NCBI GenBank assembly: GCA_029261355.1
Contig: JAJDBM010000050.1
Span: 1 to 64,000, forward strand
DNA: 64,000 bases
DNA from: Nitrospirales bacterium
GTDB taxonomy: Bacteria; Nitrospirota; Nitrospiria; Nitrospirales; UBA8639
Direction of reading: 5' to 3'
The notes below the pieces were generated by a model. It worked only from the letters and a program-made list of their open reading frames with translations. It was not told the DNA's origin and did no database searches. This document shows, in pieces, positions 4,625 through 45,131 of this stretch. Position 1 is the stretch's first letter. Each line of letters starts with the position of its first letter. A program made the position numbers and the translations under genes.

Positions 4625-4801
4625 ATCTGGGAGCTGACCAGGGCTAATCAACGATCGTTTCAGCCATTATTCACTCAGACTTCTTGCAGTTTTTCTCATG
4701 AATCTTCGGGTAAGGATGATCTCTCAAATCAAGAAGTGAGGCATGTGGGTAAAAGAAGTTCCCAGGTAAGCCTTTGGACCTTCCAATGTTAGGATAGTCG
4801 T

Positions 4802-5371
4802 TTATTCATGAAAGCGAAATGTATTCCAGTTGCCACCGCGCAGATCACTAAAAAATAATGTTCGATCTTCTTCTTTTACTATCATGTTTGCCGCTGCGAT
4901 GGCCTTGCGGTAAAAATTCGTAGCCTCCGTCGCGTTGTTTTGAAGGGCATGTGCCCGCGCCATGGCTTCCATCGCATATGCCAGATCAAAACTCTGAAAC
5001 TCTGGATTGTTCGAGTCGGTTAATTCGAAGCATTTTTGTGCGTGGCTTAATGCCATTGAGCCATTACCTAGTTTCGAATGAGCACGCGAGATTAACCATT
5101 CGCCTCGTTGCCGATTCACAACGGTGCCAACGTTGCTCCAGTGGTACGCCGAAGCATAGGACGCATAGATTAATTCATCCTTCTCGTCTTCGGAAAGATT
5201 CTCTTTTTGGAGGAGTTCCCACGCCTTTCCATTCGTTTGCTTGGCGAATTCTCTATGCGCTTCATGTAACGGATGCATGTTTTCTTTCGACATTTCTTCA
5301 CCAACGGCTATACATGCTTGAACGTGAGCACTCATCCCGAAAAACAACAATAGCCAAAGTGTTTTTCTCAT
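4802..5371 (-). CDS. secreted TPR-like helical protein
   Basis: A 189-residue protein with a clear signal peptide (MRKTLWLLLFFGMSAHVQA, cleavage near residue 19-20). The rest is alpha-helical, with repeat-like blocks such as RGEWLISRAHSKLGNGSMALSHAQKCFEL and YAMEAMARAHALQNNATEATNFYRKA, which read as two or three tetratricopeptide-like hairpins. Such proteins usually act as periplasmic protein-protein scaffolds. No catalytic motif is visible. It stands alone on the minus strand between IS30 remains and alkD relic copy 3. Confidence 0.8.
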   Translation of the reverse strand: MRKTLWLLLFFGMSAHVQACIAVGEEMSKENMHPLHEAHREFAKQTNGKAWELLQKENLSEDEKDELIYASYASAYHWSNVGTVVNRQRGEWLISRAHSKLGNGSMALSHAQKCFELTDSNNPEFQSFDLAYAMEAMARAHALQNNATEATNFYRKAIAAANMIVKEEDRTLFFSDLRGGNWNTFRFHE

Positions 5372-25232: not shown

Positions 25233-26045
25233 ATGAAAAATCATCAGAAATTGATATTCGGATGTGTGGTTCTTGGAATCATTGGGTTGGTGCTTCCGTT
25301 AGAAAATGTCGCGGCAAAGGTCATCACGAAAAGCATTACCTATACGCATGGGGAGGTCGAGCTCGAAGGGTATCTGGCTTGGGATGATACGGTGAAGGGG
25401 AAAGCTCCGGGTGTGCTCGTTGTGCATGAATGGTGGGGGCTCAATGAGTATGCCAAATCTCGAGCCAAGCGATTAGCGGCGGAGGGCTATATCGCATTTG
25501 CCGCAGATATGTACGGGAAGGGCAAGGTCACCGAGCATCCAAAACAGGCTGGAGAATGGATGAACACCATGATGGCGAATGTGAGCAACTGGCAGGCGCG
25601 AGCCATGGCAGGGCTGAAAGTTCTTCAACAGCATGCTTTAGTGGATGCGAATAATATTGCGGCGATCGGTTATTGTTTCGGTGGCGCGACGGTTACGCAA
25701 CTCGCTTATGATGGAGCTCCAGTAAAGGGTGTGGTTAGCTTTCATGGAGCCTTACCGTTGCCGAGTGAAGGCCAAGTCATTAGTTCAAATGTCAAAATTC
25801 TTATCGCTCATGGAAATGAAGATCCGTTTCTCAAGGAAGATCATATTCTAAACTTTCGAAGTGCGGTAGAAAAAGCTGGACTTGATTGGCAGATGATCAT
25901 CTATGCTGGTGCCAGGCATAGTTTTACGAATCCTGCAGCCGACAAAGTTGGAATGGATGCTCTTAAATATAATAAAAAGGCCGACGTGCGTTCGTGGAAC
26001 CATATGGAACTTTTTTTCGAGGAGTTGTTTGAAGTTTCTCAATAG
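25233..26045 (+). CDS. secreted dienelactone hydrolase family protein
   Basis: A 270-residue alpha/beta hydrolase with a signal peptide (residues 1-28). The nucleophile Cys lies in IGYCFGGATV (near residue 150), the Asp in HGNEDPFLKED (near 193) and the His in GARHSFTNPAA (near 227), the Cys-Asp-His triad of dienelactone hydrolases. VVHEWWGLNEYAKSRAKRLA is the usual oxyanion-loop motif. The ribosome binding site is GGAAGGAGG. These enzymes hydrolyse lactones or esters; the periplasmic location suggests scavenging or detoxification. It is divergent from the sulfite dehydrogenase operon. Confidence 0.93.
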   Translation: MKNHQKLIFGCVVLGIIGLVLPLENVAAKVITKSITYTHGEVELEGYLAWDDTVKGKAPGVLVVHEWWGLNEYAKSRAKRLAAEGYIAFAADMYGKGKVTEHPKQAGEWMNTMMANVSNWQARAMAGLKVLQQHALVDANNIAAIGYCFGGATVTQLAYDGAPVKGVVSFHGALPLPSEGQVISSNVKILIAHGNEDPFLKEDHILNFRSAVEKAGLDWQMIIYAGARHSFTNPAADKVGMDALKYNKKADVRSWNHMELFFEELFEVSQ

Positions 26046-26072
26046 CGATTTTCACAAAGCATCAGATAAAGT

Positions 26073-26104
26073 GTTGCTCCGTGCACTCAAGTGCACGGAG
26101 CAAC
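26073..26104 (+). terminator. perfect 15-bp hairpin after the dienelactone hydrolase gene
   Basis: GTTGCTCCGTGCACT pairs without mismatch to AGTGCACGGAGCAAC around a CA loop, 28 bases past the hydrolase stop. The stem is strong but no T-run follows, so it is either a terminator of unusual form or an mRNA end-stabiliser. Confidence 0.6.
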
Positions 26105-26107
26105 GTC

Positions 26108-26175
26108 ACTTGTTTCATGATACTTTCTGGTTCGTATCCTCCCATTGCCATACTCGCTGGTCAGTTTTCGTTCGG
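26108..26175. repeat. dispersed repeat, copy 1
   Basis: Shares the core TTTCATGATACTTTCTGGTT, then CGTATCCT, an ACTGCC/TTGCC block and TGGTCAG-TTCG with copies at about 33664-33746 and 34411-34492. Copy 1 is about 85% like copy 3 over 65 bases by eye and sits in a gap between genes. Confidence 0.7.
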
Positions 26176-26585
26176 ATTTAGGAGCGGGGCCTCTCTACAT
26201 TTTCAATATGTGTGACCTAAAATGTCTTGGCTGTTTAACAATTCACATGTATAGGTATTTTAGAAGCAAGTGATTTGACTTCTTTCCGGGAGACGGTCCC
26301 CCAATCAAATTTTTTTTGCATCACGAGCTTCGCGAACGATTTCATATTGTCTTCGATAATTTAAGTCTTTAAGTTATTCGAGGAGGGGGCAAGTAGACGG
26401 TAGCTTGCATGGATGATGTCTTATGCTGGCCCCATGAATAGAAATAGGGAGCATCAATCTTGGTTGGCTTCGGTTGGGGTGTCTCGGTAATTGATTGGAT
26501 ACTTTGAATGGCTAATTGGGTAGTAATTGGAGGTGTCAGTGGTAATCAAGAAATACAAATGGACAGTTATACCAATTGCTCCAGC

Positions 26586-29500
26586 TCAGTCTCTGCGATT
26601 TTTTTGTTCTAGTGTATTGGCTATGGCTAGTTTGGGTCGTCGAGGCTGAACACGTTGTTGGGGCAATGTAAAGAAAAAGGTGGAGCCTTCATCAAGTTTG
26701 GACGTGACCCATATTTCTCCTCCATGAAGTTCGACTATTTTTTTACAAATGGCGAGCCCAATCCCTGTGCCAGCATATTCTTGTTTTGCGTGTAATCGTT
26801 GAAAGATGACAAAAATGCGGTCGGCATATTGTGGGTCAAGTCCAATGCCGTTGTCCCGAATGCCTATTTCCCAGTTGTGTTCCGTTTGTGTGGCGAAGAC
26901 TTCAATTATTGGAGCATGTGAGCCGTGATATTTAAGTCCATTGCCAATAAGATTTTGAAAGAGTTGCTCCATTTGTGATGGGTTGGCCTTTACTGTTGGG
27001 AGGGAGTGTATGTTGACGGTGGCTTGGCTGTCGGTAATCACCGCTTCTAAGTTGCTTTTTGCCTGTTCTGCAATTTGTTGGAGGTCGACGATTTTAACCT
27101 GTAGTTCTCCGCGAGCAACCCGAGAATAGGCAAGTAAGTCTTGGACGAGGGTCTGTAGGCGAATGGCGCCGTTAACAATGCTGGAGAGGTATTTTTCAGA
27201 TTCTTGAGGCAATTGGCCTTTGGCACGTGTTACTAAAAGTTCCGAGAAATTTCGAATTTTGCGAAGAGGTTCTTGCAAGTCATGAGAGGCAACATAGGCA
27301 AACTGTTCAAGTTCTTCATTCGAACGGCGTAAGTCATCGATGTATTGCTTTAAGGTCTCCTCAGTGACTTTCTCTGCGGTCATATCCCAATTCACCCCAG
27401 TCATGCGTATAGCCTGATTGTGCTCGTTCCGTTGCACCATGGCAAAGGCACGAATGTGGTGAACCGAGTGATCTGCCCAGACCACACGAAATTCGGTATC
27501 AAAGGGTTTTCCGCCATCTAGGGCTTCTTGGAGTGCGGCTTGGGCTTTGGCGTTATCCTCAGGATGGATGCCCTGTGTCCAGGCTTCATAGGCACCGGTG
27601 AAGGTCTCTTCCTGAACGCCGTAGAGGGCATACATTTGGGTGTCCCAGGTAAGCTGATTGTGAATGACGTCCCAGTCCCAAATTCCAATTTGAGCTGATT
27701 GGGTAGCGATTTGCAGTCGTTCAGAGAGGGCGAGGATTTTGTCTTGGTGGGCTTTTTGTTCGGTGATGTCTTGGAAGGTGACAACGACGCCTGTTAATCG
27801 ACCGTCTTCATCAGGAATTGGGGTGCTGGTATAGGTTACAGGGAAACTGGTGTTGTTTTTCCGCCAGAACACTTCGTCGCCAATGTGATGGATGGAGCCG
27901 TCCATAAAGGACGCATACATCGGACATTCTTCGCGTGGATAGGGCGAGCCATCAGTTTTGGTGTGGTGGATCGTCGTATGCATCGGAAGCCCGATTAGTT
28001 CTTCCGGCGTAGAGCCTAACATCTTCGCAGCAGCCGGGTTCACGAAAGTGGTGTTACCTTCTAGGTCGATTCCATAAATGCCTTCTCCTGCTGACCTTAA
28101 AAGGAGCTCGTTATTTCGATTCAATTCTTGCATCTGTTTTTCAGATTTTTGGCGTTCTCGGAGATCACGAACAAAGGCACTAAATTGGATGGTTTCATTC
28201 AACTTGACTGGTGTTACGGCTAGTTCAATGGGGAATTCTACCCCATTCCGATTGAGTGCGGTAATCTCCATGCGTTGATTTAATATTGACCCGCTACCAG
28301 ATTCAAAGAAAGTTTTCATACCATGTGCGTGGCTTTCACGATGGTGGATGGGAATAATGGTTGAGGCAACAGATTTCCCAATAATTTCTTCTTGTGACCA
28401 CCCAAAGATGAGTTCAGCTTGAGGGTTCCATCCAGTGATTTTTCCATGACTATCCATGACAATATGGGCATCAAGCGAGTTTTCAACAATTAGGCGATTT
28501 TTAATCTCACTTTGTTGTAAGGCTTCTTGTGCATTTTTTCGCTCAGTAATATCAACAATAGTGGCGAGGACGAATGTCCCCATCTCTGTGGTCATGGAAT
28601 TCAACAGAATCTCTAAAGGAAACTCAGTTCCATTCTTTCGTTGGCCAAATAACTCGCGGCCGAGTCCCATGGAATAGTCTTTTTGTGAAGATAAAAAGTT
28701 GGCGCGTAGTTCAGGGTGTTGAGCACGGAATCGCGTCGGGAGAAGAATTTCTACTACTTGCCCAGTGAGTTCTTCACGTGTATAGCCAAATTGTTTCGAA
28801 ATCACTTCATTTATAAGGACAATGATGCCCTGTTGATCTACCATAAGTATGCCATTAGATACAGCTTCGACAATGGTTCGAAATTGTTGTTCCTTTTGTG
28901 CTAATGCAGCTGTTCGTTCCTCCACTCGAGATTCTAGCGTATGATTTGCCCGTTGTACCTCGAGTTTTCGTTCCCAGGCTCGTTGCTGAACCACGTTGAA
29001 ATGGATGGCTAATTCTCGGAGCTCTTCAATGGTCTGATTTTCAGGAAGAAGTTGAATAGTCTCTTCTTCAAGTAAAGCAGAAGACCGTATTTTGAGTTGT
29101 TCTAAGGGAGTAATGAGAAATTTTCGCCCAAGGGTGATGCCTATCATCACGCAGAGGCTTGTGACGATGAAAGACATGAGCAAAATTGGTTGGAGTAATG
29201 TGGCCATGGCTGAAGAGGTATTTTCAGCTGATGCCGTATATTGAAGCGTGAGCCCCCAAACGTCGGTTTGTTCTATGGAGTGATTGTCCGTAGATTCAAT
29301 GTGACCCCATGTCGTGACAAGTTGATTGTGATCAAAGAGTTGTAAGTGTGCATTGACTAACGAATCATGTAGTCCCTGAAACTGATGGTTTGGGCCGATA
29401 GGAATTTCTCCAACTAATATTCCTTCAGGATTTCCTTTGAATAGAATGGGGACGGCAATTTCCCAAAAATATGTCTGACCTTGAGAATTGAACCCAATAT

Positions 29501-29966
29501 GATGAGTGGTTCTGCCTTGTATCAAATTTTCTAGCCAAGGGGCATCTGTAAAGGCCGTGTGTATGGTTGCGTGTGTGGCATGAATGGGTTGTCCAAGAAA
29601 GTCTACAAGTATTAACTGCGAGTCCTCTCCTAAGACTCGTAATTCTGCCATGAAGTCTGCAACTTGCTCTGGATTTCGTTTGGGTTGCATCACCGCTTGA
29701 ATCATGAGAGGGAACCTTGCATGATCGATGAGCTGTGTTGTGCGGTCATCTAGGTAGGTTTGCAGCAAGGTTTTGAGTGTGGTGAAGTTTGTCTGCACGT
29801 TGGCCTGCTGGGTCTGGTAAATTGCATCTTGTAATTTAAACACCACGACGCTTGAAATGAGAAGAGAGAGAGTGACAAATCCCAGGAGGATGAGGGTTGG
29901 ATAGATTGAGGAGAGTGAGAGAGTTCGACGTGAAGGTTGTTGTGCCTCTGGAGGTGATATTCTCAT
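26586..29966 (-). CDS. multi-PAS sensor histidine kinase with periplasmic sensor region
   Basis: A large, 1126-residue kinase. A membrane helix at ~25-47 and another at ~262-285 bracket a periplasmic sensor region with a Cache-like appearance (LRVLGEDSQLILVDFLGQPI). A linker with HAMP-like character follows, then four PAS domains at about 363-485, 490-610, 620-745 and 755-880 (the last a PAS_3 type, IGIWDWDVIHNQLTWD). The HisKA box is YVASHDLQEPLRKIRNFSEL near 905. The ATPase domain shows IGNGLKYHG, DNGIGLDP and GTGIGLAICKKIVELHGG. No receiver domain is attached, so a separate response regulator, not seen nearby, must be its partner. It lies 43 bases after a receptor-type binding-protein gene. 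Confidence 0.93.
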   Translation of the reverse strand: MRISPPEAQQPSRRTLSLSSIYPTLILLGFVTLSLLISSVVVFKLQDAIYQTQQANVQTNFTTLKTLLQTYLDDRTTQLIDHARFPLMIQAVMQPKRNPEQVADFMAELRVLGEDSQLILVDFLGQPIHATHATIHTAFTDAPWLENLIQGRTTHHIGFNSQGQTYFWEIAVPILFKGNPEGILVGEIPIGPNHQFQGLHDSLVNAHLQLFDHNQLVTTWGHIESTDNHSIEQTDVWGLTLQYTASAENTSSAMATLLQPILLMSFIVTSLCVMIGITLGRKFLITPLEQLKIRSSALLEEETIQLLPENQTIEELRELAIHFNVVQQRAWERKLEVQRANHTLESRVEERTAALAQKEQQFRTIVEAVSNGILMVDQQGIIVLINEVISKQFGYTREELTGQVVEILLPTRFRAQHPELRANFLSSQKDYSMGLGRELFGQRKNGTEFPLEILLNSMTTEMGTFVLATIVDITERKNAQEALQQSEIKNRLIVENSLDAHIVMDSHGKITGWNPQAELIFGWSQEEIIGKSVASTIIPIHHRESHAHGMKTFFESGSGSILNQRMEITALNRNGVEFPIELAVTPVKLNETIQFSAFVRDLRERQKSEKQMQELNRNNELLLRSAGEGIYGIDLEGNTTFVNPAAAKMLGSTPEELIGLPMHTTIHHTKTDGSPYPREECPMYASFMDGSIHHIGDEVFWRKNNTSFPVTYTSTPIPDEDGRLTGVVVTFQDITEQKAHQDKILALSERLQIATQSAQIGIWDWDVIHNQLTWDTQMYALYGVQEETFTGAYEAWTQGIHPEDNAKAQAALQEALDGGKPFDTEFRVVWADHSVHHIRAFAMVQRNEHNQAIRMTGVNWDMTAEKVTEETLKQYIDDLRRSNEELEQFAYVASHDLQEPLRKIRNFSELLVTRAKGQLPQESEKYLSSIVNGAIRLQTLVQDLLAYSRVARGELQVKIVDLQQIAEQAKSNLEAVITDSQATVNIHSLPTVKANPSQMEQLFQNLIGNGLKYHGSHAPIIEVFATQTEHNWEIGIRDNGIGLDPQYADRIFVIFQRLHAKQEYAGTGIGLAICKKIVELHGGEIWVTSKLDEGSTFFFTLPQQRVQPRRPKLAIANTLEQKNRRD

Positions 29967-30009
29967 GTATGTATCAATACAGGTCTAATTCAAGTAATGA
30001 TGTGATGAC

Positions 30010-31266
30010 TTAATCAAAGAGTAATAGGATTTCGCCATCATTGCCGTAATGTCCCATGACAAAATCTTCTGATGAGAGTGCTTCATGGGCGTCAGGGTTT
30101 TTTGGACTAAATATGCCAAAGGGTTTGTGATAGGTTTTAATGAGGCCGGTCACTGGTTCCTTCAGATTTTCGAGAGCTGTTCTGATGTTTTTCCTATTGG
30201 TCGTCATGTCCTGTGTCAGGTCAGTTTGCTTGATGGCTGCAATAAGGAGTTTCGTTAAATCATATCCATGAATAAATCCTGTTGGGGCTTTAATACTTTT
30301 AGGTGTGGTGATGATTGTCGGGAAAAGTTTTTTGGCCCGTTGAAACACCTGCTGTCCCATGGAGTGGATGCTCTGGCCTATAAAAGAAAAGCGTGTTTGG
30401 ATGAATGCCAGATCGAGTTGTGTGCGCATTGCCTGATTAATCACGAGAGGAAAGTCGCCTCCCGTTATACCCCAATGAGAACGAATTGGCAGTCGTTTGT
30501 CTTGGGGGAAGCTCAACAGTGATTTGGTAAAGGTTAGTCCATCAGGTTCCCCTCCAACAAAGAGAATGACATCAGCGTTGGAATGATAAATCTTTGTGAG
30601 AATACGTTTGGCCTGGCTAGCACCTAATGTCCAATTGAACCAGGCTAACCCCGCAAGGTCGGCTCCGGTCCGTTTGTAGGTTTCTATGGCTTTACGCATG
30701 GTGCGTTCATTGGATTTCCCCCATCCTGTATCTTCGAGTAGGAGAAATGGGTGTCGGAACCCATCTACTTCAATGGCATGTTTCACTATGGTATAGCCTG
30801 CCTTGCTGTCGTCAATGGATAAGCGAAAAATCCAGTTTTCCTTGGAGGGATATCGAGTAATGGGCCCTGCTGCTGCCCAAGGGTCTAGGGTTAGGATTCC
30901 TTGAGTATTAATGTATTCACGATTCGCCAGTAATGGAGGAGAGTGAAGTCCGGCAAATACTGCAAGAGCCTGAGGATCTACGAGAAATTGTTTTAGGTGC
31001 TGTAAGCTTCGGGGAGAACTTCCTCGATGATCTTTCTTGATAACCTCAACAGGATGTGTGGCAAGAAGATTATCGATTTCATCGAGTGCGGTACGAATGC
31101 CTTGTTCGATTGATATTGCTGATGTGCTATGGACTGTGAAGTCAGCGTCAATATACAACTTGAGTGGTGATGGTGCTTGCGCTGTAGCGACGTGAGCTCC
31201 TAGGAACCATATGCTGACCCCAAACACCAGTGAACTGCATATGACCGCTCTGCTCCTCATGGACAT
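30010..31266 (-). CDS. type 1 periplasmic ligand-binding protein (LivK-like)
   Basis: A 418-residue substrate-binding protein of the branched-chain amino acid receptor type. ATG 31266 is chosen because CAGGAGAACACA precedes it. The signal peptide runs through VFGVSIWFLGAHVATAQA. Two Rossmann-like lobes show FAGLHSPPLLANREYINTQG near residue 110 and YHSNADVILFVGGEPDGL near 230. No ABC permease or ATPase genes follow; instead the next gene, 43 bases on, is a sensor kinase with a periplasmic domain. The pairing suggests a receptor feeding the kinase. Confidence 0.85.
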   Translation of the reverse strand: MSMRSRAVICSSLVFGVSIWFLGAHVATAQAPSPLKLYIDADFTVHSTSAISIEQGIRTALDEIDNLLATHPVEVIKKDHRGSSPRSLQHLKQFLVDPQALAVFAGLHSPPLLANREYINTQGILTLDPWAAAGPITRYPSKENWIFRLSIDDSKAGYTIVKHAIEVDGFRHPFLLLEDTGWGKSNERTMRKAIETYKRTGADLAGLAWFNWTLGASQAKRILTKIYHSNADVILFVGGEPDGLTFTKSLLSFPQDKRLPIRSHWGITGGDFPLVINQAMRTQLDLAFIQTRFSFIGQSIHSMGQQVFQRAKKLFPTIITTPKSIKAPTGFIHGYDLTKLLIAAIKQTDLTQDMTTNRKNIRTALENLKEPVTGLIKTYHKPFGIFSPKNPDAHEALSSEDFVMGHYGNDGEILLLFD

Positions 31267-31758
31267 TGTGTTCTCCTGCAAATGTGGTATCAGTTTGGGT
31301 GTCGGAAATTTATTGTCAATGTGATGTGGTCATGGTCTGTTACGTCAGGTATGGTTTGGATGGTCTCTTTAAATTACTTATATCCTCCTTCTTGCGTTAA
31401 ATCCAATATATTCTGGTTTCCAAAATTTTGCTAGAAAACTTGACCCAGTTATGAAAGGTGGGAGTATTTCATAACACGTACATGTGAAAAAAAAAGACAA
31501 GGTCCATTACCTTCTGAACAAAAAAAAGACGCCCGAGTCATTCCACTGCTTGGAATACCGAGGACGCCATCAACTTATCACTCTTGACTATCTCAAGTGA
31601 CACGGTAGGCTTTATCTGTGCAGGAGATTATCTTTGGAGAAATACACCGTTACTCTATTAGAGACTGGGAACGTAAGGGTATCTTCAAAAACATCTCGTC
31701 CATGAATCTATCGGCCTCTTCTTTTCATTTCTTAAGTGTTATGTAAGCATTCTTGGAT
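31267..31758. other. intergenic, no gene seen
   Basis: About 490 bases upstream of the binding-protein gene. It includes A-rich tracts near 31490-31530. Short frames such as GRHQLITLDYLK appear on the plus strand but none is convincing. Confidence 0.4.
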
Positions 31759-31890
31759 TCAATTTGTAAGTGCAATGGTTAATGAGGTCGTGGTGTCAAA
31801 GAATACTTCATGTGGTGTGCGATAGCCCAGTGTCGTTGAGTGATTTCGAGTTCCTATCTCATCGATGTAGGATATGATCGTTCTTATAGT
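31759..31890 (-). pseudogene. IS3-type transposase OrfB, C-terminal scrap
   Basis: The minus strand reads SYIDEIGTRNHSTTLGYRTP then HEVFFDTTTSLTIALTN and TGA, matching the C-terminus of IS3 OrfB (YNxxRxHSTLGYxTPxEF). It starts inside the 3' end of the outer-membrane barrel gene, whose stop at 31884 overlaps it, so the element appears to have been deleted down to this end. Confidence 0.7.
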
Positions 31891-32711
31891 TTGACCCGAA
31901 TCCCGCCAGCCACTCCAACGCCATCTAGAGAGGGGTTGCGTTCTTCAAATCCGTTGAAACGACCTTCCACAATCAAGTCAAATGTATCTGTCAGTGTGAA
32001 GCTGAGTTCAGATTCGGCAACCCATTGGTTCGGGGCATTGTTCACAATGTTGTAATCGGCAAATCCAATGAGTTTTATCCGTTCAGTCAGGACGAAGAAA
32101 TGCGTGTTACTGAGTTGCCAGCCTTTTCCATCTGAGCGCCATGGGAGAATTCGCCATTGCAGCCAACTCTTGTCTTGATGAAGAAATGGTACAGAATGTT
32201 GATAGCCTAGTCCGGCTCGGAGAAGACTATTGTCTGGCCCGTTGGCATCATTATATTCCAGTTCAATATCGAATCCTTTCAGACCCAACAACCGGTCTGG
32301 GCTTAGTGGTCGTCGTAGACGGTATTCATGAAAAAACCGTGTCATATCAAATCGATTGGATGACTGTCCCTCCGTCCCATGTAGATCGGTGAATCCAAAA
32401 ACATTCAATCCCCATGGTAGGGCAGTCGAATTGACTAATAGATTCATCGTATTGTAATCACGAGAGTCGAAGTAATAGCTTAGATTAATATGTGTGTTTT
32501 TTTGAATTTCTCCTATACTCGAAGATGGTTCTGTCTGTGTTTCTGCAGGTTGGGCTGAGGCCGTCGTGTTATCAGTTGTGTGAGGTCTTGTCTCCTCTGT
32601 ACTGGTTCGTGGTGCTGCGTTGATGTACGACCATGTTGATGGCGCGATGATACTTACGGCGATGAGGCTCGTTAGTAAACAGCCAATTGGTCGCTGAGTT
32701 GTGGATCGCAT
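31884..32711 (-). CDS. outer-membrane beta-barrel protein, Tsx-like
   Basis: A 275-residue protein with a signal peptide (CLLTSLIAVSIIAPSTWSYI NAAP region), a Thr/Glu/Ser-rich linker to ~70, then amphipathic strands (NTHINLSYYFDSRDYNTMNL; KGFDIELEYNDANGPDNSLL; LSFTLTDTFDLIVEGRFNGF). The alternating pattern and the late strands ending in IRVKL resemble 8-12 strand barrels of the nucleoside-specific Tsx channel group. The C-terminal Leu replaces the usual Phe/Trp. The end is overlapped by IS3 debris, so the original C-terminus may be altered. Confidence 0.75.
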   Translation of the reverse strand: MRSTTQRPIGCLLTSLIAVSIIAPSTWSYINAAPRTSTEETRPHTTDNTTASAQPAETQTEPSSSIGEIQKNTHINLSYYFDSRDYNTMNLLVNSTALPWGLNVFGFTDLHGTEGQSSNRFDMTRFFHEYRLRRPLSPDRLLGLKGFDIELEYNDANGPDNSLLRAGLGYQHSVPFLHQDKSWLQWRILPWRSDGKGWQLSNTHFFVLTERIKLIGFADYNIVNNAPNQWVAESELSFTLTDTFDLIVEGRFNGFEERNPSLDGVGVAGGIRVKL

Positions 32712-32995
32712 CGTCTAGTATTTTTCTTTTTCTAATATCTGGTGATTGAGGGTGGTTGTGGTGAGATAGTTTGACCATGGTGTTGGTTGCTGGTCTTTAA
32801 AATCTCGGTATCCTCATCGGTGGATGAAGGAAGAATCTTTAATGAGGTTAAAGTGTCTTGAGTTTGAGGAATGGAGATGTGAGGCTCCCTCAATTGAGTG
32901 ATAGACGGAGTCTGTTGAGACGTCCTAAATTATCTGATGTGGATTGAAATCCGTGTGTTTATGTATTTTTTGACCATAGTTCAGGAGTATTCATC
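32712..32995. other. divergent intergenic region
   Basis: Holds the promoters of the outer-membrane barrel (minus) and the lipoprotein gene (plus). I see no clear site and no gene. Confidence 0.4.
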
Positions 32996-33526
32996 ATGAA
33001 AATTCAGCCTAGAGACTTAGTCTTATCCAACTATTATTCTCGTGTCATTAGTGTGTTTATAATGGCGGCAATTTTCATTTTTGGTGTCGTTGGTTGTAGT
33101 ACAAAGGTTCTTCGTTTACACGATGAGTCTCAGAATTCTCGTCATGCCGTTGCGACGTTAGAACTTCCCGATTCATCCATGGTCTTGACTGGAATGATAG
33201 ATGCTACCAACAATACTGGTCGATCAATGCCACGCAATGACCTGGCTTCCACACGCATTGTCGAAGTCAGCCCTGGTCAGTATGATGTTTCAATATTTTA
33301 TGAGCACCTTGGGTATTCACGGTGTTGGCCTCAAGACCATGTTGTTCGTTGTACGAAAACTCTTGATCGTGGTTGGTGGTTACCAGGATCCACTTTGATT
33401 CCAGGTCGTGCTCATTGGGAGGCTGAGCCAGGAAAGACATATATCGTACAATTGACTCAAGAATATTGGTCAATTGCTGAACATGGGGAGTGGTCTCCGG
33501 TCATAGTAGAGAAGTCTCTAGAGTGA
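32996..33526 (+). CDS. lipoprotein of unknown function
   Basis: A 176-residue protein with a signal peptide and lipobox VVGC (Cys34). The mature part reads like a small beta-sandwich: HAVATLELPDSSMVLTGMID, RIVEVSPGQYDVSIFYEHLG, then HWEAEPGKTYIVQLTQEYWS. Pattern and length resemble lipoproteins of the carboxypeptidase-regulatory-like or DUF-type envelope group, but no name is certain. Two cysteines flank a WPQDHVVRC segment that could form a disulfide. Confidence 0.8.
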   Translation: MKIQPRDLVLSNYYSRVISVFIMAAIFIFGVVGCSTKVLRLHDESQNSRHAVATLELPDSSMVLTGMIDATNNTGRSMPRNDLASTRIVEVSPGQYDVSIFYEHLGYSRCWPQDHVVRCTKTLDRGWWLPGSTLIPGRAHWEAEPGKTYIVQLTQEYWSIAEHGEWSPVIVEKSLE

Positions 33527-33583
33527 TGAGCTGGTCTGGGTTTTTGTCGTTGCGTGCATTCATGAGACCCTGTGAGATGTAAA

Positions 33584-33649
33584 TTATCCTTTGGGTTGTC
33601 GATGATGTAAGTGTTGTTGCGGCAACGTAAAGAAAAAGCTTGAATTCAA
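33584..33649 (-). pseudogene. histidine-kinase 3'-end scrap
   Basis: The minus strand reads LNSSFFFTLPQQHLHHRQPK then G and TAA, matching the end of the ATPase domain of the kinase at 26586-29966 (GSTFFFTLPQQRVQPRRPK). Only about 21 codons survive. It is followed immediately by repeat copy 2. Confidence 0.7.
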
Positions 33650-33663
33650 GTATGTTCTCACGA

Positions 33664-33746
33664 TATACGGGTCAAGCTATTTACTTCATGATACCTTCGG
33701 GTTCGTATCCTCAAACTGCCTTACTCAGTAGCCAACATTCTTTCGA
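33664..33746. repeat. dispersed repeat, copy 2
   Basis: Resembles the copies at 26108-26175 and 34411-34492 (ATACGGGTCAA, then TTCATGATACC, GGGTTCGTATCCT, ACTGCCTTACTC). It is more diverged and contains a stop in the frame kept open by the others. Confidence 0.65.
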
Positions 33747-34047
33747 GCTAGTGTATATTCCAGGAAATTTCTAGATTACCGGAATAGGGCGTGGATCAAA
33801 GGAAGGCTCTGGACCTCGCCAAGCGGATTAAAATCTCACGTTATTACTTAACGAAGATTTTTTGAACCAATATGGAACACTTCTCCAAAGGTAACCGTTC
33901 CCTTTGGAGGTCATCATGTTATTTGAAAAATACAAAGTCCTGTGGATTCTGAATAAGAAGATTTTATGGGCAAGTCAAAGATATAACCGAATAGCCTATT
34001 TGTTACATGGAGACTGAGGAAACTGTGTTTAAAGAGGATGGAAACAT

Positions 34048-34398
34048 ATGAGCCTGCATGACGTATCGAAAGCAGCCATTCATGATCTAGTTGCCCCCAT
34101 GTTCCAAAGTATTATTCGAAGTAGCAATAACAACAATTACTACACGTTTAGTCATGACTTTAGTGATGAGTTAAAGTCACGTCTGACTCAAGAGAATTTT
34201 GAGAACTAACGAGCTACTAAGCCGCAGCTAACTGGCATCTCAGAAGAGATGGAGTTTATTGATTGTATTCGAAGAGATTCTGGCATTACTGCTGTGTATC
34301 GTTTAACAAACACGACATTGCTCGGTGAGTGTTTGGGGGTAATTACCGTAGAAGATATGGCCAACACGATACATGTCACGGCGGTCCTTATTCATTAG
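34048..34398 (+). pseudogene. hypothetical gene with an in-frame TAA
   Basis: From ATG 34048 the frame reads MSLHDVSKAAIHDLVAPMFQ, SIIRSSNNNNYYTFSHDFSD, ELKSRLTQENFEN, then TAA (34207-34209), then continues in the same frame as ATKPQLTGISEEMEFIDCIR, RDSGITAVYRLTNTTLLGEC and LGVITVEDMANTIHVTAVLIH before TAG at 34398. Continuity of frame and composition implies a former 116-residue protein (possibly a periplasmic or cytoplasmic NTF2-like fold) split by a nonsense mutation. No family recognised. Confidence 0.55.
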
Positions 34399-34410
34399 AG
34401 TAAGCAACAG

Positions 34411-34492
34411 GTATACGGGGCAAAACACTTATTTCATGATACTTTCTGGTTCGTATGCTGCTACTGCCGTTTTCACCGGTCAGCATTCGTTG
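34411..34492. repeat. dispersed repeat, copy 3
   Basis: Best preserved member with ATACGGGGCAA, TTTCATGATACTTTCTGGTT, CGTATGCTGCTACTGCCGTT and CACCGGTCAGCATTCG. It starts 12 bases past the stop of the broken gene. No terminal repeats of its own are visible. Confidence 0.7.
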
Positions 34493-34626
34493 AGCTTTCT
34501 CCAGAAGCCGATCGCGATTGAGAAGAAGTCTTAGATTTACTGAACGTGAATTTTGATAGGTCAAGCGGTTACATAGATTTTTCGTTTTGTCGTTAAGAAT
34601 GTGTGGAGTGCGGAGCTAACGCAAAA

Positions 34627-34660
34627 CCAGGAGCCGCATGACACGGCCCCTGGCTTGGGT
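34627..34660 (-). terminator. Rho-independent terminator of hsp20
   Basis: On the minus strand, CCAGGGGCCG and CGGCTCCTGG form a stem with one mismatch and a 7-base loop at 34627-34653, followed by TTTTG, just past the Hsp20 stop at 34666. Confidence 0.75.
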
Positions 34661-34665
34661 GAGAG

Positions 34666-35085
34666 TTATCGGACGGCAATCTGACGAGGCTTAGCATCTT
34701 CTCTCTTGGGGAACCCAATGGTGAGAACCCCATCGCTAAATGATGCGTCAGCCTTATCCCATTGAAGGTTTGTTGGGAGGCGAAACGCTCTCTTGAAAGA
34801 GGCGGTTTCGATTTCTCGTACATGATACGTCCGTTCGATTTTTTCGTCCTTGTTTTTGACGTCTTCTCTTTTGCCTTCGATGGTTAACACGCCTTTATCC
34901 ACTTCTACCTTCACTTGCTCAGACTTCCATCCTGGCAATGCCAGCTCGATTCCAAAGGTGTCGACATTTTCCCAGGCATTGCTGGCAGGGGCCCAGTTAG
35001 GAACCTCTCGATCAAAGGCACGAACAGCGTCATTAAATAAACGATCAATTTGAGTATTGAGTGGAGCATATGTTGTGAGTGTCAT
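34666..35085 (-). CDS. Hsp20/alpha-crystallin small heat-shock protein
   Basis: A 139-residue small heat-shock protein, normal for the family. ATG 35085 is chosen because GGAGGGTGCC precedes it (the longer frame to 35199 starts without one). The alpha-crystallin domain (residues ~35-125) shows VDTFGIELALPGWKSEQVKV, VDKGVLTIEGKRED, RTYHVREIETASFKRAFRLP and the A-x-x-x-GVL block SFSDGVLTIGFPK. An ATP-independent holdase against aggregation. The expected heat-shock control site was not located upstream. It ends at a good terminator. Confidence 0.95.
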   Translation of the reverse strand: MTLTTYAPLNTQIDRLFNDAVRAFDREVPNWAPASNAWENVDTFGIELALPGWKSEQVKVEVDKGVLTIEGKREDVKNKDEKIERTYHVREIETASFKRAFRLPTNLQWDKADASFSDGVLTIGFPKREDAKPRQIAVR

Positions 35086-35485
35086 GGCACCCTCCTTTGT
35101 GTTTGTATGAATAGTTTTGCTGCACTGTTTTGTCTTGCCGGCTTGTTCAACAGATAAGTTGCTTTCTCGAAAAGTCAAGAGAAAAAATATACAGGACACA
35201 TGTGTGCTTTTCTATTTGCAATCTATTTGCAAAGTTGATGATGACAATATGTATGTGCGAGCAAGGAAATGAAACAATGTAAATACGGGGTTTTTATTTC
35301 GTAAAGAAATGAAAAGCTACGAGATAAAAAAATAGATGAAAGAACATATATGAGTGGAGGTGTTGGTCAGTTGATTTGTGAGTACAATAGAAATGAAGGA
35401 GGCAATACTTGGACAGGCAGGTCACGATGCTCACAAAAAGTAAGGCGAGTGATCCCTGTAGAAGGGGTCAGGAGTGCAAGATTTC
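35086..35485. other. intergenic region upstream of hsp20
   Basis: Very AT-rich near 35200-35340; likely contains the hsp20 promoter. A plus-strand frame at 35350-35598 has no ribosome binding site and runs antisense to the small ORF below, so I do not call it. Confidence 0.4.
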
Positions 35486-44396: not shown

Positions 44397-45131
44397 GTGG
44401 GAAGAATACAGGTCATTCTCAAGCGAGAATTAGCAGGATATTTTGCCACTCCTATTGCAGGGGTGTTCATTGTGATCTTTCTGTTATTGAGTGGAGCATT
44501 TACGTTTTACTTGGGAAACTTTTTCGTTAGAGGCCAAGCAGATTTGATTCCTTTCTTTGATTTCCATCCCTGGTTGTATCTCGTATTGATTCCAGCGATT
44601 GCGATGCGGCTGTGGGCCGAGGAACGTAAGGAAGGCACTATTGAAATGTTGCTGACATTGCCCGTAACGATATGGGAAGTGGTGGCTGGGAAATTCCTCG
44701 CGGCTTGGGTGTTTACTGGTATTGCCCTAGCCCTGACATTTCCTATGTGGATTACCGTGAACATCTTGGGTAACCCGGACAACGGGGTTATCGCGGCCAG
44801 TTATATCGGAAGCCTCCTCATGGCTGGCGGGTTTTTGGCAATTGGCTCATGCATGTCTGCGTTAACAAAAAATCAGGTTATCGCGTTTATTCTGAGTGTT
44901 GTGGTGGGTTTAGGGTTTATTCTGAGTGGTTTTCCAATGATCCTTAACTTGTTTAGCGGGTGGACACCGCATTTTATCTTGGACACCGTTAGTTCCTTCA
45001 GTTTTTTGACGCATTTTCATTCGATCAGTAAAGGCGTGCTAGATCTTCGGGATATTTTCTTTTTTCTGACTTTGATTGCGTTCTGGTTGTTTGCGACGGC
45101 CACCATTATCGATATGAAAAAAGCTGAATAA
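44397..45131 (+). CDS. ABC-2 type permease, GldF-like
   Basis: A 244-residue integral protein with six predicted helices. The first residues RIQVILKRELAGYFATPIAG are typical of ABC-2 permeases, and RLWAEERKEGTIEMLLTLPV is the conserved motif after the second helix. It starts at GTG with GAAAGGACAAGATC upstream. Combined with the GldA-like ATPase and the GldG-like partner it would make an exporter or a mechanical ABC complex such as those with GldFG or NosDFY. Confidence 0.93.
   Translation: MGRIQVILKRELAGYFATPIAGVFIVIFLLLSGAFTFYLGNFFVRGQADLIPFFDFHPWLYLVLIPAIAMRLWAEERKEGTIEMLLTLPVTIWEVVAGKFLAAWVFTGIALALTFPMWITVNILGNPDNGVIAASYIGSLLMAGGFLAIGSCMSALTKNQVIAFILSVVVGLGFILSGFPMILNLFSGWTPHFILDTVSSFSFLTHFHSISKGVLDLRDIFFFLTLIAFWLFATATIIDMKKAE

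Follow-up and report, generated by a model that had tools for sequence, protein, structure and literature searches.

Insertion between the hydrolase and HSP20 genes

The window (the whole stretch of DNA analysed here, 64,000 nucleotides from a contig of an uncultured Nitrospirales bacterium) contains a dienelactone hydrolase-family gene at 25233-26045 on the forward strand and an HSP20-family gene at 34666-35199 on the reverse strand. These two genes are convergent direct neighbours in the genus-mates G001 and G002. Homology to the window ends at 26030-26060 on the left and restarts at 34623-34630 on the right, and therefore a stretch of ~8.6 kb (26061-34622, with the left edge possibly at 26031), absent between the flanking genes in both genus-mates, is inserted in the window. 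The span of 26108-34492, over which a dispersed repeat had been noted in the initial annotation, nearly coincides with this insertion relative to the close relatives.

Four larger frames are present in the insertion. A PAS histidine kinase (26586-29966) and a periplasmic binding protein of the Peripla_BP_6 family (30010-31281) are both encoded on the reverse strand, and among 39 relatives the binding protein has one weak match only (G041, 23% identity). They are followed by an open frame of 275 aa (31884-32711, reverse strand) with no Pfam, NCBIfam or PHROGs match and by an open frame of 176 aa (32996-33526, forward strand) with no Pfam or PHROGs match and two NCBIfam matches far below the cut-off. 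A foreign base composition of the insertion was considered and set aside, the G+C content (0.441, compared with 0.457 in the rest of the window) being uninformative.

The gap between the hydrolase and HSP20 genes is occupied by a different insert in the genus-mate G003, which includes part of the hydrolase 3' end a second time (273 bp, 82.8% identical), and this gap may be an insertion hot spot. By eye, the G003 insert (C33:27500-35500, L174) holds a gene resembling nucleotidyltransferases and small frames resembling those of toxin-antitoxin systems. In G004, just a remote relative of the hydrolase was found.

Extent, similarity and surroundings of the three copies

Three intergenic copies of a repeat, all in direct orientation and ~85-100 bp long each, are present in the window at the places proposed in the initial annotation. 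A three-sequence profile scores copy 1 (c1, 26088-26180), copy 2 (c2, 33650-33750) and copy 3 (c3, 34398-34498), all on the forward strand, with 88.8, 92.3 and 99.0 bits, respectively, and the next-best place in the window with 5.4 bits. Each copy has a TIR-like core, which lies at 26097-26122 with one extra base in c1, at 33669-33693 with 1 mismatch to the family pattern in c2, and at 34417-34441 with 2 mismatches in c3. In a 66-base ungapped block, c1 and c3 are the most similar pair (54/66, so that 12 places differ), while c1-c2 and c2-c3 share 48/66 each. The tails that follow the cores are clearly conserved among the three copies, as the 60-base tail pair scores of 48, 58 and 45 lie above the top shuffle scores of 28, 34 and 29, respectively, from 1000 shuffles per pair. 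No clear similarity was seen past the limits of the copies, where the best pair was equalled by 10 of 200 shuffles. A shared GTCAGCATTCG end, also claimed earlier, is literal in copy 3, but copies 1 and 2 have related, differing letters there.

The outer copies c1 and c3 are near the two edges of the ~8.6 kb insertion, with the start of c1 at 27-57 bp from the left edge and the end of c3 at ~124 bp from the right edge. At 26073-26104 there is a perfect hairpin, with arms of 15 bp, that starts 27 bp past the stop codon of the hydrolase gene. The earlier description of this hairpin as a neighbour of one copy needs a correction, because the hairpin's right arm coincides with the left end of c1, so that the two features overlap. 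In the hydrolase-HSP20 gap of G001 and G002, a different hairpin is found. The gene wreckage reported at the other two copies is borne out. A histidine kinase C-terminal-like fragment of 19 residues (33590-33643, reverse strand) abuts c2 and resembles the kinase at 26586-29966 (DNA 81.6% identical over 49 bp; 12/19 residues, E 0.002). A broken frame with one internal stop and a weak, below-cut-off DUF3887 match (34048-34398, forward strand) adjoins c3.

The fold at c1 was suggestive of a head-to-head pair of ends, a candidate which was rejected as the similarity outside the perfect stem is not significant. A degenerate second end to the left of the hairpin was equalled in 296 of 2000 shuffles, and in 34 of 300 when anchored.

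The copies carry the core of a genome-wide family

The first ~35 bases of the copies match a genome-wide family with the core GGGGTCAAGnYrCTTGYTTYATRATA. The core has relatives elsewhere in the own genome: with up to 3 mismatches, the core pattern occurs at 26 sites (0 with a reversed-pattern control), including c2 and c3 and leaving out c1 owing to its extra base. In the genus-mates G001 to G004, the same pattern occurs at 0, 20, 7 and 13 sites, respectively, again with 0 in the controls. In the profile search proposed for this repeat, a sequence-only model of c1-c3 was run on 21 genomes with the own genome included; apart from the copies, it gave shorter matches to its first half, some in the own genome and others in genus-mates, and these have the core in common.

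Because the pattern was built partly from the window copies, which makes the count of 26 sites circular when taken alone, an independent HMM was built from 56 sites outside the window, and its result is not circular. The top three places of this HMM in the window are c2 (19.0 bits), c3 (17.0 bits) and c1 (11.8 bits), compared with 9.3 bits for the best place in 20 Markov-simulated windows; c1 exceeds this best null match by just 2.5 bits.

By a simple count, with one locus measured at a neighbouring site, the site falls within an ATG frame of at least 100 codons at 2 of the 26 own-genome loci. One of these two, C49:10058 within a 472-codon frame, may be a chance match, which makes at least one such site among the 26. 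Clusters of TIR cores in both orientations were seen at G000:C33:2496-5744 and 45045-45127, and one pair in inverted arrangement is included, with 58 bp between the two starts.

The tail is convincingly found only in the three copies

The tail of ~50 bp is convincingly present only in c1-c3. Compared with 57 other tails, transposase ends included, it gave no significant match (best z 1.8, equalled by 15 of 200 shuffles). No full copy was found outside the window at E 0.001 under stricter filters in 48 family genomes, the own genome included. The sole further match at this threshold, at C6:2072-2109 (E 7.2e-4), covers model positions 11-47 only. A candidate fourth copy at C17:96095 (E 0.0195) was dropped, since its tail is matched by 35 of 200 shuffles and it is absent at E 0.001.

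Searches with the DNA of copy 3 in the own genome and 58 relatives gave, past c3 and c1, just short weak matches, such as one of 21 bases in G004 (E 0.0195). Copy 3 with its flanks had no match at E 0.01 among plasmids and phages. A 21-base pattern directed to the tail had 0 matches in genome_contigs and 0 in viral_contigs, collections from which records of the own or a very near genome are possibly excluded. The tail was also compared with the 5' leader of the transposases described below, and the alignment is not significant. The distance from the core to a TGCC in the tail is ~23 nt, which resembles the 20-26 nt between TIR and ATG in five of the six full-length elements.

Two known motifs were looked at by eye. 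Sigma-54 promoters have a GG-N10-GC spacing, which is seen at C6:2081 and is not kept by the window copies. Integron attC sites have the motif GTTRRRY, which is seen in c3 only, and the genes here lie in both orientations. Both candidates were rejected.

Association of the core with Y1 transposases

The exact core pattern was found at 30 loci from named genomes (labelled Nitrospirales, Pseudoalteromonas, Acidiferrobacteraceae, Chromatiales and others). At six of these, a full-length Y1 transposase gene has the core inverted at both ends; eight more have other transposase matches, either incomplete or lacking the core on at least one side, and in the fetched stretches of the other 16 transposase is absent. 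The six full-length elements are alike in their architecture: the 5' core precedes the ATG by 20-26 nt in five of them and by 47 nt in L138, and the 3' core overlaps the stop codon in all six. No transposase was detected beside the window copies themselves.

Among the full-length transposases, the Pfam scan covered that of locus L075 from the genus-mate Nitrospirales bacterium NPIRA01 (G002). This one protein has a Y1_Tnp domain (PF01797, E 9.9e-12) and a C-terminal Bac_DnaA_C domain (PF08299, E 1.4e-7; 31.9 bits with a cut-off of 31.5), and it matches a DnaA chain in the PDB (3pvp, E 0.0006).

In the own genome, two Y1 transposases have open frames and are more distant from L075 (37% and 41% identity); four short Y1 transposase pieces, 29-63 residues long, lie at C58, C74 and C5. 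An intact transposase from the cognate clade did not turn up in our searches of this genome, and the window copies are therefore probably fossils; an intact copy could be missing because the assembly is 99% complete and in 74 contigs. Beside c1-c3 there is no convincing transposase remnant (best hmmsearch E 0.4), and the best tblastn match near the copies (E 0.005, 26% over 94 columns) lies inside the binding-protein gene. A different GGGGTCA-type inverted repeat was read on both sides of one open-frame Y1 transposase, L034 (G000:C10:294331-295170).

Comparison with described repeat families

Elements of this kind have been named TIRtrons, and some of their TIRs have GGGGWSAS in common (PMC3733652, 2013), published for the TIRYT repeats as GGGG[AT][CG]A[CG]. 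Section 20 of a later study (PMC6006769, 2018) places 20 of the 26 described TIRYTs in subclass 2.1, whose HTH domains are DnaA-like or of other types. That study detected no REP-like sequences in the vicinity of genes of this subclass and urges more analysis of the TIRYT link. Judged by its domain pair of Y1_Tnp and Bac_DnaA_C, L075 fits the described TIRYT/TIRtron group, subclass 2.1. The family resembles that group, as these two articles describe it, in its Y1 transposase with a DnaA-like C-terminal HTH, in inverted repeats starting GGGGTCA and in solitary and paired repeats that are scattered across the genome. The window copies differ in being solitary and decayed, in having a private tail of ~50 bp and in lying in a genome where the intact cognate transposase was not found. 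The family core continues after GGGGTCA with A or G, mostly A, at the eighth base, for which published GGGGWSAS has S; the aligned place in the window copies reads CGGAGCAA, CGGGTCAA and CGGGGCAA.

The REP/RAYT system, as outlined in PMC2817692 (2010), likewise has a Y1 gene between inverted repeats and solitary copies mostly outside long open frames. However, reading of the aligned cores (consensus AAAAAGGGGTCAAGTTGCTTGCTTCATAATATAGAGT) reveals neither a long palindrome nor the GT[AG]G that marks its foot in GTAG REPs, and there are tens of sites here compared with usually >100 copies per genome in that system. MITEs are 70-300 bp long with TIRs of 15-30 bp and no coding capacity (PMC3733652). 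The window copies share with them a short noncoding unit of less than ~100 bp bearing a transposon-end sequence, but the second, inverted end was not found in the unit, and c2 and c3 have a single end by reading. Nitrospira moscoviensis is listed in a table of REP counts in PMC12306157, the main text of which does not contain GGGGTCA. In the TIRYT and Nitrospira REP literature searched, this repeat family was not seen described for Nitrospirales, which is not proof of absence.

Origin of the copies

The copies appear to be noncoding termini from a transposon family. It is likely that c1-c3 are decayed remnants of a TIRYT-type element, each with one TIR and ~50 bp of adjoining sequence, within an accessory insertion. 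In such an element, inverted TIRs enclose a Y1 (HUH tyrosine) transposase gene. By analogy with the published RAYT/TIRYT group, the transposase would recognise and cut the TIR on single-stranded DNA and might spread TIR-bearing pieces into intergenic gaps, after which the family would have decayed in this genome. The copies may have come along with foreign DNA or may have acted as short homology for recombination. As all copies have the same direction, c1 and c3 do not represent a pair of inverted ends enclosing a single simple transposon.

The position of the outer copies also raises the possibility that c1 and c3 are direct-repeat junctions, attachment-like or of short homology, left by a circular DNA bearing the repeat that integrated between the hydrolase and HSP20 genes. 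Their closeness to the edges, shared orientation and status as the most similar pair agree with such an event. When the three copies are placed at random, the chance of such closeness is 0.0003-0.0006 over the whole insert and 0.003-0.006 if a simulation restricts them to its gaps, in a test that was picked post hoc. However, the gaps of G001 and G002 have no copy that could have served as the target, no Pfam recombinase is encoded in the four larger frames of the insertion, the internal copy c2 demands an extra step and the 12 differences between c1 and c3 imply that the junctions, if any, are old. We therefore regard integration through these repeats as unlikely. There is a very slim chance that solitary ends of the tyrosine-transposase family serve as landing or joining sites, so that accessory genes are captured as modules between direct repeats. 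The modules, assigned with equally little confidence, would be c1-c2 with the kinase and the binding protein and c2-c3 with the further decayed gene, an arrangement distinct from integrons.

The conservation of the tail across all three copies would also be expected of an unrelated noncoding element, such as a small RNA or a regulatory site, that happens to hold a TIR-like stretch. Two copies also have an unbroken ATACG/CGTAT pairing that spans the core, and in c1 one of its pairs is broken. Yet the RNA folding suggested in the initial annotation gives weak support for structure: the consensus of the copies has 13 pairs, one of them compensatory in three sequences, and a low folding energy of -4.65 kcal/mol. 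No Rfam family reaches the gathering score at the copies, the only such match in the window being a tRNA elsewhere, and a relaxed Rfam search of 25950-34700 gave 5 sub-threshold matches, of which 4 are on the c1 hairpin and 1 is at 28819-28928. Since the core also scores with transposon ends in the independent profile, this origin appears quite improbable. The idea of a former coding sequence had been prompted by the open reverse frame of copy 3, and one forward frame is in fact open across 21 codons in all three copies. The variable columns are spread nearly evenly over the codon positions (9/7/7). In addition, a stop interrupts the reverse frame in copy 2, and copy 1 has no start codon for it; together these observations leave hardly any room for protein-coding remnants.

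The likely origin from TIRYT-type ends makes this an ordinary transposon-end family with an interesting placement. With it, a TIRYT-type repeat family is placed in the genus to which this uncultured Nitrospirales bacterium belongs, and the window provides a concrete case in which such repeats lie close to the two edges of an accessory insertion. The same core is also present in Pseudoalteromonas and in other records labelled gammaproteobacterial. In the locus L138 of Pseudoalteromonas caenipelagi, the 5' TIR and part of the leader are tandemly duplicated (4751-4812) before the full-length transposase gene.
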